From: Halorubrum salipaludis
GTDB taxonomy: Archaea > Halobacteriota > Halobacteria > Halobacteriales > Haloferacaceae
Length of the DNA: 64,000 bases
NCBI RefSeq assembly: GCF_002286985.1
Contig: NZ_NSKC01000003.1
Location: 310,001 to 374,000, forward strand
Direction of reading: 5' to 3'
Both the position numbers and the translations under genes were made by a program. Positions 35,101-60,349 of the stretch are shown in pieces (position 1 is the stretch's first letter; each line of letters begins with the position of its first letter). A model generated the notes under the pieces. The model worked only from the letters and a program-made list of their open reading frames with translations, was not told where the DNA came from and searched no databases.

Positions 35101-35288
35101 ACCGATAGTACGCGCTCCGGGGGTTTAAGCGGCCGGCCGAGGCGGACGCCGCGACTGGAAACAGAACGGTCCGGCTTTGTACAGATGCAGCGATGAGCGA
35201 CTTCGGGAGTGAGTGTTGCAGATCGGTAGGGGCGAGACGGTATTTAAACAGCCGTGAGCGGCGTCGACGACTACTTATAAAAACGGCG

Positions 35289-35544
35289 CGGTGGCGCGTG
35301 CCTCCGAGGCCGCTTCGCGGCCGAGGAGCACGCGCGAGGGAGTCGCTGGCGCCTTATAAGGCGCCAGCGACGAGGCTGGGGAGGCGTGAGGCTGCGGTTG
35401 CAGTGTGGGTGGGACTCAAAGGGGCAGCCGCGAGGCCAGCTTAGGCGACGCTAAGCACCGCAGAGAGCGAGTGAAACGAGCGACCGAGGAGCGAAGCGAG
35501 CGTAAGCTGGCCTCGCGGCTGGGGCTTTGGAGGTCTTCACCGCG
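35289..35544 (+). repeat. Structured dispersed repeat, copy 1 (R1)
   Basis: About 256 bases that share blocks with two other copies in this window. Blocks in order: GGTGGCGCG near the start; stem A with arms GCGCGTGC (35294-35301) and GCACGCGC (35328-35335) around GGCCGC-TTC-GCGGCC; a 30-bp palindrome; the invariant GAGGCTGGGGAGGCGTGAGG; GGGACTCAAAGGGGCAG; an 18-bp stem C, AGCCGCGAGGCCAGCTTA (35426-35443) with its exact complement at 35503-35520; then CTGGGGCTTTGGAGG and TTCACCGCG. Inside stem C a short hairpin CTTAG...CTAAG (35440-35455) takes the place of the two long hairpins of copy 2. TACTTATAAA at 35272-35281 could be its promoter. Frames through it encode only Arg/Ser-rich nonsense. 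It is either a small structured RNA gene or a non-autonomous mobile element. Confidence 0.8.
35342..35371. repeat. Perfect 30-bp palindrome inside R1
   Basis: Arms GTCGCTGGCGCC and GGCGCCAGCGAC meet at TTATAA with no unpaired base. It sits where copies 2 and 3 have a different, imperfect nested stem. Confidence 0.95.
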
Positions 35545-35741
35545 GGCACATCGATCACTTATAAACAGCCGACAGCAACACCAAAATCAGACTTATAAAC
35601 AACCGAACAGCCAATTTGCTATACCCACTCCCGCTATCGATCAAGAAGCGGCCCTCTTCAGCCGGCGGGTTCAGAGACAGCTATGTCTGAAGAAGGGGAG
35701 TTCAACAGAGCCAAAGATCCGTATCGGACCGGGTGGACCGA
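35545..35741. other. Rest of the gene-free region after R1
   Basis: No gene is visible. It holds repeated TATA-like modules: ACTTATAAACAGCC at 35557-35570 and ACTTATAAACAACC at 35591-35604, similar to TATTTAAACAGCC at 35241-35253 before R1. A GTTCAGAGACAGC/ATGTCTGAAG partial inverted repeat lies near 35669-35696. Confidence 0.5.
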
Positions 35742-40958: not shown

Positions 40959-42437
40959 TCACCGCCCGACCGGGTAACCGTCGGCCTCCTCGTTCCACCG
41001 GCCCCCGTCGCCCCGTCCGCGTCCCCGCCGTCCGTCGGTCGACGCGGCGACCCGCGAGGGGTGTTCGACCGCGAGCTCCGCGTTCGCCGCTGGGTCGGCG
41101 ACGGTCCGCTCGCGGCCGTCCGGCCACCGCACCGCGACCCGGACCGGGGTCGACCCGCCGAGCCCGAAGTGCGCGACCGGCTCCGTCTGGCAGAGGCAGC
41201 CGCCGCCGGCGTCGACGGTGCGGCGCTGGACCCCGTCGGTCGTCTCGAGCCTGACCACGGCCCCCCTGGCCGGCGCGCCGTGACGCGTTGTCGGACGGAT
41301 CCGGACCCACCCGGCGGCGCGCGCCGTCGGGTCCTTGTACACCGCGATCGGCTGGGCCGCGACCTCGCCGTGGACGACGATCAGTTCGAGGATACCGTCG
41401 CCGTCGATGTCGGCCGCAACCGCCCCGGTCCCGAACCCGTCCGGCTCGGCGGCCGGTCCCGGATCGACCCGGTGCCAGCGCGCGGCGTCGCTCTCGCCGT
41501 CGTCGCTCTCGTCACCGCGCGCGAAGAGCCGGTTGGGCTCGCCCGAGGCGTTGAAAAACAGCTCCTCGCGGCCGTCGTTGTCGAAGTCGGCGGCGACCAC
41601 GGTCCGGACGCGGCCGGTGTCGCGGAGCGCGGGCGGCGCGGCGTCGGCGAACCCGCCGTCGGGCGCTCGGCGGAGGAGTCGGTTCGGCCCGCTCTCGTTG
41701 CCGACCGCGAACGCGAATCGACCGCCCTCGTCGACGAGGGCGGCCCCGCGCGTGTCGCCCGCCGGATCCGAGAGCGCCGTTCCGCCGTCGGCGGCGTCGT
41801 AGTGGCCGCCGTCGTTCCGGAACAGCCGGTTCGGCCCGCGTTCGACCCCGGCGAACAGGTCGCCCTCGCCCGAGCAGTGCGGGACCGCGAGCAGCGACCG
41901 ACAGCCGCCGTCGACCTCCAGTCCGACCGCGTCGGCCATGTCCGTGATCTCGCCGTCGTCGCCGATCTCGTAGAAGGCGAGGGGCGCGGCGTAGCCGGAG
42001 ACGGCAACGCCGTACCGCCCGGTTCCGAGGCGGTCGAGCGCGGCGACGGACCGGCCCGCGCGCACGGCGAGCCGGTCGGCGTTCACGTCGAGCGCGAACA
42101 GGTCGGTCCAGCGGTAGCGCTCGGACTCGAGCCGGTTCAGGAGGAGGTCCGGGTCGCCGCCGCCGTCGACGCCCTTGGTGCAGTTGTGGACGTACACCTC
42201 CTCGCAGCCGTCGGCGTCGAGGTCGGCCGCACACACCCCCATCCCGTGTCTGGTCCCGTCGGCGACGATGCCGCAGGCCGTGTCGACGAATTGATCGCCA
42301 TCGCGGGCGTACAGCCGGTTCGGCTCCCCGTAGCCCGCGACGAACACGAGCGGTCCCTCCCGGCCGGGCGTCACCGCGACGCCGTAGCCCCGAACCGGGT
42401 CGTCGTCAGCGACGATGTCGGACCGCTCCGTGAACAT
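40959..42437 (-). CDS. CRTAC1-like FG-GAP/VCBS repeat protein with ASPIC/UnbV end
   Basis: A 492-aa predicted beta-propeller. Repeats with DxDxDG-type calcium loops are visible: AADLDADGCEEVYVHN, AADFDNDGREELFFN and AADIDGDGILELIVV, each followed by a GEPNRLF-like strand. The last 90 residues match the ASPIC/UnbV domain (GAVVRLETTDGVQRRTVDAGGG...). It has no signal peptide or membrane segment, unlike most proteins of this type, which are secreted. A cysteine pair (CLC) lies in the last domain. The function is unknown. Confidence 0.82.
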   Translation of the reverse strand: MFTERSDIVADDDPVRGYGVAVTPGREGPLVFVAGYGEPNRLYARDGDQFVDTACGIVADGTRHGMGVCAADLDADGCEEVYVHNCTKGVDGGGDPDLLLNRLESERYRWTDLFALDVNADRLAVRAGRSVAALDRLGTGRYGVAVSGYAAPLAFYEIGDDGEITDMADAVGLEVDGGCRSLLAVPHCSGEGDLFAGVERGPNRLFRNDGGHYDAADGGTALSDPAGDTRGAALVDEGGRFAFAVGNESGPNRLLRRAPDGGFADAAPPALRDTGRVRTVVAADFDNDGREELFFNASGEPNRLFARGDESDDGESDAARWHRVDPGPAAEPDGFGTGAVAADIDGDGILELIVVHGEVAAQPIAVYKDPTARAAGWVRIRPTTRHGAPARGAVVRLETTDGVQRRTVDAGGGCLCQTEPVAHFGLGGSTPVRVAVRWPDGRERTVADPAANAELAVEHPSRVAASTDGRRGRGRGDGGRWNEEADGYPVGR

Positions 42438-58780: not shown

Positions 58781-58892
58781 ACGCTCGCTCGCATCGGGGA
58801 CGGCAAAGGTCTACCGTTCGACCGCAGGGTTGCCGGTCGAATGCGATCGAGAGAGATGAACATGACTGAATGTACTTATAAACGGCCAATAG

Positions 58893-59215
58893 CGGTGGCG
58901 CGCGCCTCCGAGCAGCCGACAGGCCGCGAGGAGCGCGTGCGAGGGACGCGGCGAACGCGAGCGGCGAAGCCGCGAGCCGTGAGCCGCGAGGCTGGGGAGG
59001 CGTGAGGCTGTGCGGTGCCGTGCGGGGTGGGATTCAAAGGGGCAGCCGCGAGGCGGACAGAGGCGTTCACGAGAGCTCCGCTCTCGTGAGCCAATCAGAA
59101 CGCTTCGCGTTCTGATGACGACGCAAGCACCGCAGGGAACGAGCGGAGCGAGTGACGAGGAGCGCAGCGAGCGTCTGTCCGCCTCGCGGCTGGGGCTTTG
59201 GAGGAGTTCACCGCG
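58893..59215 (+). repeat. Structured dispersed repeat, copy 2 (R2)
   Basis: About 323 bases, the longer form of the element. Stem A has GCGCGCGC (58898-58905) against GCGCGTGC (58933-58940) with one G-U pair. A nested stem follows, then the invariant GAGGCTGGGGAGGCGTGAGG and GGGATTCAAAGGGGCAG. Stem C is AGCCGCGAGGCGGACAGA (59044-59061) with its exact complement at 59174-59191. Inside stem C are two hairpins, CACGAGAGC-TCC-GCTCTCGTG (59068-59088) and TCAGAACGC-TTC-GCGTTCTGA (59095-59115). GCGGTGC upstream can pair with GCACCGC near 59127. The end is CTGGGGCTTTGGAGG and TTCACCGCG. TACTTATAAA at 58873-58882 may be a promoter. Putative proteins through it are Arg-rich and not credible. Confidence 0.85.
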
Positions 59216-59271: not shown

Positions 59272-59808
59272 TTAGTTCGCGACCTTCGCCTCGAACTTCT
59301 CGCGCACCTTCTCCATCTTCGGCTTCGCGTGGAAGGTGCAGTAGGCGTCGTCGGGGTTCTTCGCGAAGTAGTCCTGGTGTTTCTCCTCGGCGCGGTAGAA
59401 CGTCTCCAGCGGCTCGATCTCGGTCACCACGTCGTCGTCGTACTCCTCGTCGAGCGCGTCGACGTACGCCTCAACGATTTCGCGCTGCGCCTCGTCGTGG
59501 GTGAGGACGATCGAGCGGTACTGGCTCCCCACGTCCGGGCCCTGGCGGTTGAGCTGGGTGGGGTCGTGGATCTCGAAGAAGGCCTCCAGCACCTCGTCGT
59601 AGGCGATGACGTCGGGGTCAAACTCCACCTGGACGACCTCGGCGTGGCCGGTGTTCCCGGAGCAGACCTGCCTGTAGGTGGGGTCGTCGACGTGACCGCC
59701 GGCGTAGCCGGAGGTGACCGACTCGACGCCGGCGAGCTGTTCGAGCGCCGCCTCGACGCACCAGAAGCACCCGCCGCCGAGCGTCGCGGTTTCGAACTGA
59801 TCGGACAT
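59272..59808 (-). CDS. msrA: Peptide methionine-S-sulfoxide reductase
   Basis: Repairs oxidised methionine, 178 aa. The catalytic cysteine is in ATLGGGCFWCVEAALEQL near residue 14. GYAGGHVDDPTYRQVCSGNTGHAEVVQVEFDP and DPTQLNRQGPDVGSQYRS are the other family blocks. It stands between inverted repeat copies R2 and R3 and is the only gene in that interval. Confidence 0.94.
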   Translation of the reverse strand: MSDQFETATLGGGCFWCVEAALEQLAGVESVTSGYAGGHVDDPTYRQVCSGNTGHAEVVQVEFDPDVIAYDEVLEAFFEIHDPTQLNRQGPDVGSQYRSIVLTHDEAQREIVEAYVDALDEEYDDDVVTEIEPLETFYRAEEKHQDYFAKNPDDAYCTFHAKPKMEKVREKFEAKVAN

Positions 59809-59913
59809 ACTCGTCGCAAGGGCTCGGAGACGTATTAATCACGCGCGCTTATGCGCGATCAGTGGTCGATTCAGAGAGTTCCTGTACATAAGCTGGTGAC
59901 TTTGGATCGACGA

Positions 59914-60285
59914 TGAAGACCTCCAAAGCCCCAGCCGCTCGGTGATACGCGGTTGTCGTCGAGCTAACTGCGAAGGCCCCCAAAGCCCCAGTCGCGAGGC
60001 GGACAGACGCTCGCTGCGCTCCTCGTCACTCGCTCCGCTCGTTCCCTGCGGTGCTTACGTCGTCATCAGAACGCGAAGCGTTCTGATTGGCTCACGAGAG
60101 CGGAGCTCTCGTGAACGCCTCTGTCCGCCTCGCGACTGCCCCTTTGAGTCCCGCCCTGACAGCACCGCAGCCTCACGCCTCCCCAGCCTCGCGGCTCACG
60201 GCTCGCGGCTTCGCCGCTCGCGTTCGCCGCGTCCCTCGCACGCGCTCCTCGCGGCCTGTCGGCCGCTCGGAGGCGCGCGCCACCG
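59914..60285 (-). repeat. Structured dispersed repeat, copy 3 (R3), inverted relative to R2
   Basis: The core, 59978-60285, is almost the reverse complement of R2. Stem C is AGTCGCGAGGCGGACAGA (59990-60007) and its exact complement (60120-60137); one base pair differs from R2 on both sides, so pairing is kept. Stem A is perfect here: GCGGCC-TGTC-GGCCGC at 60251-60266. The two internal hairpins are unchanged. A second terminal module (CTCCAAAGCCCCAGCCGC at about 59921-59938) lies beyond the end, as if an additional copy was truncated. No TTATAAA box precedes it on its own strand; GGTTAAAAA near 60320 is the nearest AT-rich site. Confidence 0.85.
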
Positions 60286-60349
60286 GGATCGCTTGTTACG
60301 AACCCTCTTCGGACTCAGTTTTTAACCCACCGAGCCACCATCCAGTCCT

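Follow-up and report, generated by a model that had tools for sequence, protein, structure and literature searches.

The SMRs and MITEs of Haloquadratum walsbyi are short, non-coding haloarchaeal sequences present in tens of copies; the SMRs have terminal inverted repeats, a length of around 110 bp and no transposase of their own, with target duplication not seen, and are highly conserved within a type, commonly at >95% identity (PMC3119063). 'SwitchRepeats' at one site have also been reported for Haloquadratum (PMC3119063). In bacteria, bcr1 of Bacillus cereus and the REP families are high in copy number, folded and mobile-like (PMC6542083, PMC3733652, PMC2267715). The OLE, ROOL, GOLLD and raiA RNAs have complex conserved folds and an unknown task, and occur in few copies per genome. 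The 64,000 nucleotides of Halorubrum salipaludis DNA analyzed here (the window) contain three copies, R1, R2 and R3, of an element that has something in common with each of these. Like the SMRs and MITEs it is haloarchaeal, short and non-coding, with inverted ends on a subset of its copies, no target duplication noticed by eye and no transposase of its own; however, more than half of its copies lack terminal repeats, and at its core is a two-domain fold that covaries and occurs in many genera. Core-less elements of about 145 bp are similar to SMRs, whereas the core-bearing elements with two ends are larger, at 323–625 bp. Unlike bcr1 and the REPs, the element is archaeal, larger than REPs, and has stems punctuated by G-A pairs, exchangeable arms and conserved unpaired blocks, and no RAYT gene lies beside its copies. 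Unlike OLE, ROOL, GOLLD and raiA, it is present in more than 100 copies and has no match in Rfam 15. On balance, and by a modest margin, we favor the view that R1–R3 belong to a dispersed, gene-like element that specifies a structured RNA and has at least 128 copies; this is inferred from sequence, without transcript data.

A sequence-only reading of the window had described a perfect 30-bp palindrome with a TTATAA centre in R1, replaced in R2 and R3 by a longer, imperfect nested stem of unrelated sequence between the same invariant blocks. Both the palindrome and its replacement held on checking. Positions 35342–35371 (+ strand) read GTCGCTGGCGCC-TTATAA-GGCGCCAGCGAC with no mismatch, and no perfect even palindrome of the window is longer; the 16 bases at the centre of this one, with up to one mismatch allowed, have a single occurrence in the window and none in 100 shuffles. 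The sole other palindrome of at least 18 bp is a perfect one of 22 bp at 41722–41743. R2 and R3 carry a 41-nt interrupted stem of different sequence (58947–58987 and 60191–60231, respectively), bounded by CGAGGGA and GAGGCTGGGGAGGCGTGAGG as in R1. The description of this stem as imperfect and nested required correction: it is a helix punctuated by G-A loops. As its interruptions are mostly tandem GA/GA, the distinction between a perfect and an imperfect stem does not reflect a difference in structural quality.

The sequence shows the palindrome to be one arm, hairpin B, of an RNA-like fold that has two domains and a length of around 245 nt, and for which neither transcription nor function is shown. 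Folding, alignment and a covariance model place the R1 core, comprising the 5′ and 3′ domains, at 35287–35533 on the + strand. It begins with hairpin A (35294–35335; folding and pair counts), whose stem is in parts separated by a GA/GA internal loop, followed by the spacer GAGGGA and hairpin B, identified as an exchangeable arm by its palindrome and by comparison of copies. The G-rich block GAGGCTGGGGAGGCGTGAGG (35372–35391) is conserved in the alignment; the part of that alignment from other genomes was collected by the GAGGCTGGGGAGGCGTGAGG pattern, which bears on the conservation of the block. Beyond a loose G-rich stretch lie the 5′ strand of the closing helix, CAAAG (35417–35421), the 5′ side of a GGG/GGG internal loop (35422–35424), stem C (35425–35521; folding and alignment), whose apical part is variable, and the GGG and CTTTG that complete the internal loop and closing helix (35522–35529), all on the + strand; the loop and helix are supported by arm counts. 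Taken together, the + strand folds into hairpins A and B, a conserved G-rich block depicted without pairing, and a 3′ domain in which a 5-bp closing helix is followed by a GGG/GGG loop and by a long stem whose apical hairpins vary. The R2 core spans 58891–59204 (+), with two extra hairpins in stem C, and the R3 core 59977–60287 (−); no terminal repeats were found for either, and msrA (59272–59808, −; PF01625, E 9.8e-66) lies between them. Fold z-scores against dinucleotide shuffles are −6.9, −5.2 and −6.7 for R1, R2 and R3.

The sequence-only reading had also proposed that the stem persists even where its sequence has been replaced completely, and that other copies without pairing at this position would refute this. 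Comparison of copies upholds the proposal. In 120 copies of the same genome with both bounding blocks, small variants accepted, there are 77 distinct B segments, and 77/77 have at least 60% of their bases paired, against 487/1540 flank segments and 366/1540 shuffles. This set excludes nine of 129 pattern hits in which the upstream block was absent (five with an exact block, one with a single change and three chance-like). The mean minimum free energy per nucleotide is −0.72 for B segments, −0.29 for flank segments and −0.34 for shuffles, and the first 42 copies already hold 23 distinct B segments, all of which fold. Among the 2×2 internal loops of the distinct segments, 35/38 are tandem G-A (GA/GA), compared with 1.45 per shuffled set. 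The arms are constrained in shape and not in sequence.

The arms also combine with one another as cassettes. The exact 30-mer of R1 is present in 9/120 copies of its genome, where it is joined to six different A segments, and 111 copies give 103 distinct A–B combinations. At the msrA site of this genome and its relatives, 18 B segments could be parsed, 15 of them distinct, and 18/18 fold to a stem; four further copies at this site were not parsable for B. The exceptions to exchange at msrA are the R3 of the nearest relative (L326), which has the B of our own genome, and the two copies of L329, which share one B. A given B cassette is thus found beside several A cassettes, and the B at a shared site varies from species to species. 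That the replacement of arms proceeds by gene conversion or recombination is an inference from these combinations, made without a formal recombination test.

Covariation supports the fold. RNAalifold applied to 33 of 39 cores found changes on both sides in 27/56 pairs. An alignment of the 5′ domains of 45 copies (45 of 95 short domains, out of 116 unique) has 95.0% of its cells paired, against 77.1% when shuffled, with changes on both sides in 17/27 pairs. Two model-fitted alignments, of 104 and 92 matches, have 95.3% and 92.8% of cells paired, against 73.7% and 67.5% when shuffled. For these three alignments slid registers pair only 19–49% of cells, the observed pair counts exceed all slid registers, and 0/500 shuffles are as high by any measure. 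The reference structure for the pair counts was the R1 fold; as the model-fitted sets were aligned to the model and their structure taken from that fold, their counts lean towards the model. The closing helix was counted in 251 elements with both arms, from which double copies had been removed and for which the search had pre-selected AAAG-like motifs: CAAAG/CUUUG occurs in 180, CGAAG/CUUCG in 32 and GAAAG/CUUUC in 19, and all five pairs form in 234/251. A further 22 5′ motifs have no closing arm.

Several measures distinguish the strands. Core folding favors the + strand in 39/39 cases, and folding of the B segments favors + in 61/77 and − in 8/77. G-T pairs outnumber A-C by 34 to 11 in the pairs of the 45-copy alignment and by 45 to 14 in stem C. 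The 39 cores contain 106 GA/GA loops, and those of the B segments would read TC/TC on the complementary strand. The excess of G-T over A-C, the GA/GA loops (35/38) and the covarying closing helix indicate that the + strand carries the fold. The criterion of covariation on one strand, expected of a structured RNA, is met; transcription is not shown.

The family extends far beyond the window, and the notion of three local repeats, implied in the sequence-only reading, was too small. A covariance model of the 5′ domain, trained on 45 copies, identified at least 128 dispersed copies in the genome (E≤0.001, among 150 scored candidates), which at about 245 nt each represent about 0.9% of its 3.5 Mb; a BLAST search of the same genome with the R1 region returned 65 match rows (40/201 candidates scored). 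Copies were detected by their conserved blocks or by the model, which favors intact ones, and the absence of decayed copies is therefore partly a threshold effect. Two contigs (C23:1–317 and C27:1–317) begin inside very similar copies, so that breaks in the assembly fall within the element. In one single-contig relative 150/150 scored candidates match, and as 150 is a ceiling this genome has at least 150 copies. All 52 searched genomes of the genus match by BLAST, and the model finds 40 matches in a genome of another genus of the family and 14 in another family of the order. Across the class, 67/292 genomes and 19/77 genera match the 5′-domain model (13 candidates scored per genome, strict filters), and in a sample of the phylum 19/392 genomes match, all within the same order (10 candidates scored each). 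The 3′-domain motif GGACTSAAAGGGGC is found in 187/292 class genomes and 50/77 genera, with zero or one match per genome for the reversed motif among the genomes listed. A pattern scan of named genomes recovered at least Halorubrum, Haloparvum, Halorussus, Halosimplex, Halobellus and unclassified haloarchaea. Of 15 occurrences of the 3′ motif inspected in further genera, most belong to a 3′ domain of this kind, which in L362 and L367 is clearly preceded by a diverged 5′ domain. The conserved 20-mer has no exact match in viral contigs, phage records gave no matches to the element, and plasmids gave two partial hits.

Part of the copies, R1 included, are enclosed by inverted terminal repeats of around 35 bp. 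Those of R1 lie at 35204–35229 (+; CGGGAGTGAGTGTTGCAGATCGGTAG, with similarity extending outward to about 35193) and at 35608–35633 (−; placed by comparison of terminal repeats). A mismatch-tolerant pattern applied to 126 copies of the genome found such ends on both sides in 26 (one, L264, doubtful), on one side in 30, some of these being truncated by contig ends, and on neither in 70. The lengths of two-ended core-bearing elements given above refer to 25/26, with the doubtful case excluded, and those of core-less elements to L293 and L294; five loci with lone ends, where only the DNA around the ends was inspected, are short core-less or core-deleted elements. No target-site duplication was noticed by eye in the two-ended copies, without statistics. 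The R1 site is empty in 14/14 relatives in which both flanks align, and the element is likewise absent from three more with one aligned flank, so that R1 is most simply read as a recent insertion. Around msrA, parts of the element occur on at least one side in 12/23 relatives, with cores on both sides in nine and the other three truncated by contig ends; no core is present in 11/23, one of which has a lone arm. As a separate observation, msrA is flipped relative to the ribH side in L337, L339 and L340 compared with L325, as expected from inversion between facing R2 and R3 copies; the flip is also seen in the element-free L335, L336 and L341.

Only 1/126 copies overlaps a predicted gene; the rest are intergenic. 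The 123 copies with two neighbors lie in 65 convergent, 45 tandem and 13 divergent gaps, whereas 466 background gaps of at least 60 nt without the element comprise 44 convergent, 279 tandem and 143 divergent ones. Convergent gaps are enriched (65/123 against 44/466; Fisher p 6e-24), with gap lengths not matched and the background drawn from the window and from named loci chosen for holding the element. In other genomes 45/111 element gaps are convergent. Genes were called with a purpose-written codon scorer; a Pfam check of five neighbors of R1–R3 returned DUF7545, lumazine synthase, MsrA and peptidase M20, the fifth having no family. Copies without terminal repeats lie at a median of 55 nt behind the upstream gene. 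In tandem gaps the sense direction is not favored (19 ++ against 26 −−), and neither R2 nor R3 follows a codirectional gene. A simple terminator scan of R1 gave one weak − strand site outside the core (35664–35649; 0.3 expected).

The 50 nt upstream contain a TTATAA-like box in 40/66 copies without terminal repeats (3/588 background windows) and in 40/48 with them (3/432 background windows); three copies in each group were skipped for lack of a recognised start of hairpin A. In R1 the TATA-like box (35275–35280; sequence and enrichment, strand not assigned) starts 18 nt before the GGCGCG of hairpin A. The box mostly starts 17–21 nt before hairpin A; in coding genes of these genomes its commonest distance to the start codon is 28–30 nt (20/65), and it lies at 26–32 nt in 34/65. 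A simple promoter reading agrees with the enrichment of the box but conflicts with its spacing: if the box set the start, the transcript would lack the base of hairpin A. The box may represent a promoter whose start is unusual, or it may mark recombination or insertion. We also note that the R1 core has such boxes on both sides, the two downstream ones at 35559–35564 and 35593–35598 (from sequence, strand not assigned), and that the core-less L293 and L294 seemingly have only one TTATAA box at the corresponding junction.

Within the libraries and literature searched, the family matches none described. No Rfam 15 family reached its gathering score anywhere in the window. At E≤5 there were five weak matches, of which the best, to SNORA76, covers hairpins A and B and stays below the cut-off of that family (E 0.013; 27 bits against the 37 required). 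H/ACA guide RNAs have two hairpins with an ANANNA hinge and an ACA box; the hinge GAGGGA and the bases after hairpin B (GAGG) do not fit these boxes. The REP/REPIN systems with RAYT, which have palindromes of 20–40 bp and a Y1 transposase, are not matched by an element of around 245 nt, and the one Y1_Tnp gene in the genome is on contig C3, where no copy is listed. A retron, group II intron or DGR was rejected with 0 RVT_1 matches in the genome, 3/14 control genomes being positive. We recognised no description of the element in the open-access literature searched (mostly titles and abstract openings), PMC2841640 and PMC3119063 included.

These data are best read as a multi-copy, partly mobile family that specifies a structured RNA and whose arms are exchangeable cassettes; transcription and function remain to be shown. 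In this model whole arms would be replaced by gene conversion or recombination among the numerous copies, with the invariant blocks as anchors, and point changes between replacements would be compensatory. The RNA would be made, a common but unidentified partner, either a protein or an RNP, would hold the conserved unpaired blocks, and the arms may serve as rigid spacers in a cellular task as yet unknown. Against this reading, single-stranded DNA could also yield the strand bias, conserved loops and covariation, the 5′-domain model matches only 67/292 class genomes, and the TATA-like box is mis-spaced (17–21 nt against 28–30 nt).

The most serious rival, which remains possible, is a purely selfish small mobile repeat of the MITE or SMR kind, whose fold serves its own spread, for example as a DNA hairpin recognised by a transposase acting in trans, and whose site bias reflects tolerated insertions. 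It is supported by inverted ends on at least one side in 56/126 copies, with no target duplication noticed by eye, by the empty R1 site in relatives, by the scarcity of divergent (promoter) gaps (13/123 against 143/466), by the core-less elements with such ends, and by the Haloquadratum SMRs, which have these properties (PMC3119063). However, the 70/126 copies without ends keep the fold, the 3′ motif occurs in 50/77 sampled genera (the ends are not part of that count), elements adjoin msrA in 12/23 relatives, and the bias of G-T over A-C is not given by double-stranded cruciforms. We consider it unlikely that the element acts in cis at 3′ ends, with a fold in the 3′ UTR or between convergent transcripts that stops read-through or blocks a 3′ exonuclease, as for REP/BIME. 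The convergent excess (65/123 against 44/466; 45/111 in other genomes) and the median of 55 nt behind the upstream gene in copies without terminal repeats speak for this; the even tandem orientation (19 ++, 26 −−), the absence of a codirectional gene before R2 and R3, and the terminator scan of R1, with its one weak − strand site outside the core, speak against it, and the gene calls rest on our own codon scorer.

A structure in single-stranded DNA, serving replication, recombination or site-specific integration in place of an RNA, is also doubtful. C(GAA)G mini-loops and tandem G-A pairs are stable in DNA as well as in RNA, and the inverted inner segment of stem C in L029 and L340 indicates events at the DNA level. 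Conserved unpaired blocks and wobble-tolerant helices retained across an order are, on the other hand, usual for RNA and point to it, and the single Y1 transposase gene lies on a contig (C3) without a listed copy. Chance palindromes with ordinary divergence of a GC-rich repeat can be all but ruled out: GC-rich sequence folds readily, and 366/1540 shuffles reach 60% paired, but this reading is refuted by the pairing of 77/77 B segments and by 0/500 shuffles reaching the observed value by any measure.

A bolder version of the structured-RNA reading can be entertained, which we hold to be rather less probable than its negation. The family would be an ancient, order-wide haloarchaeal structured RNA, of which Halorubrum-type genomes have more than 100 recombining genes that trade arms as cassettes, and would evolve like a library of RNA shapes that is shuffled while the contact blocks stay fixed; it would parallel, in archaea, the SINE-type RNA repeats and have a cellular RNP as its partner. 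Whichever version applies, when a conserved RNA-like fold recurs at least 128 times and is absent from RNA family libraries, a sizeable part of these genomes is unannotated. The arms offer a natural experiment on the pace at which stems are replaced with structure retained, at known sites, and a search for a common RNA-binding partner should succeed if the element is transcribed.

The 3′ domain shows some further peculiarities. The two hairpins inserted in stem C of R2 and R3 are near-perfect and recur almost unchanged in other species (R3-like copies of L337 and L340). In L029 (core 1045–1294, −) and the R2-like copy of L340, stem C carries its inner segment in reverse-complement form; the flipped stretch sits inside an otherwise normal stem, as if inverted between its two arms. 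The 3′ arm of R3 is followed by a second, tandem copy (59911–59938, −), and tandem 3′ arms also lie downstream in L041, L033, L042, L082 (Halosimplex), L063 (Haloparvum) and L360; in L041 they form 57-bp units with TTTATAA, and the period differs in other loci. In another family of the order (L355, L356) the 3′ motif occurs in opposite-strand pairs, as two 3′ domains back to back, and in several places the motifs of such pairs start 47–48 bp apart.
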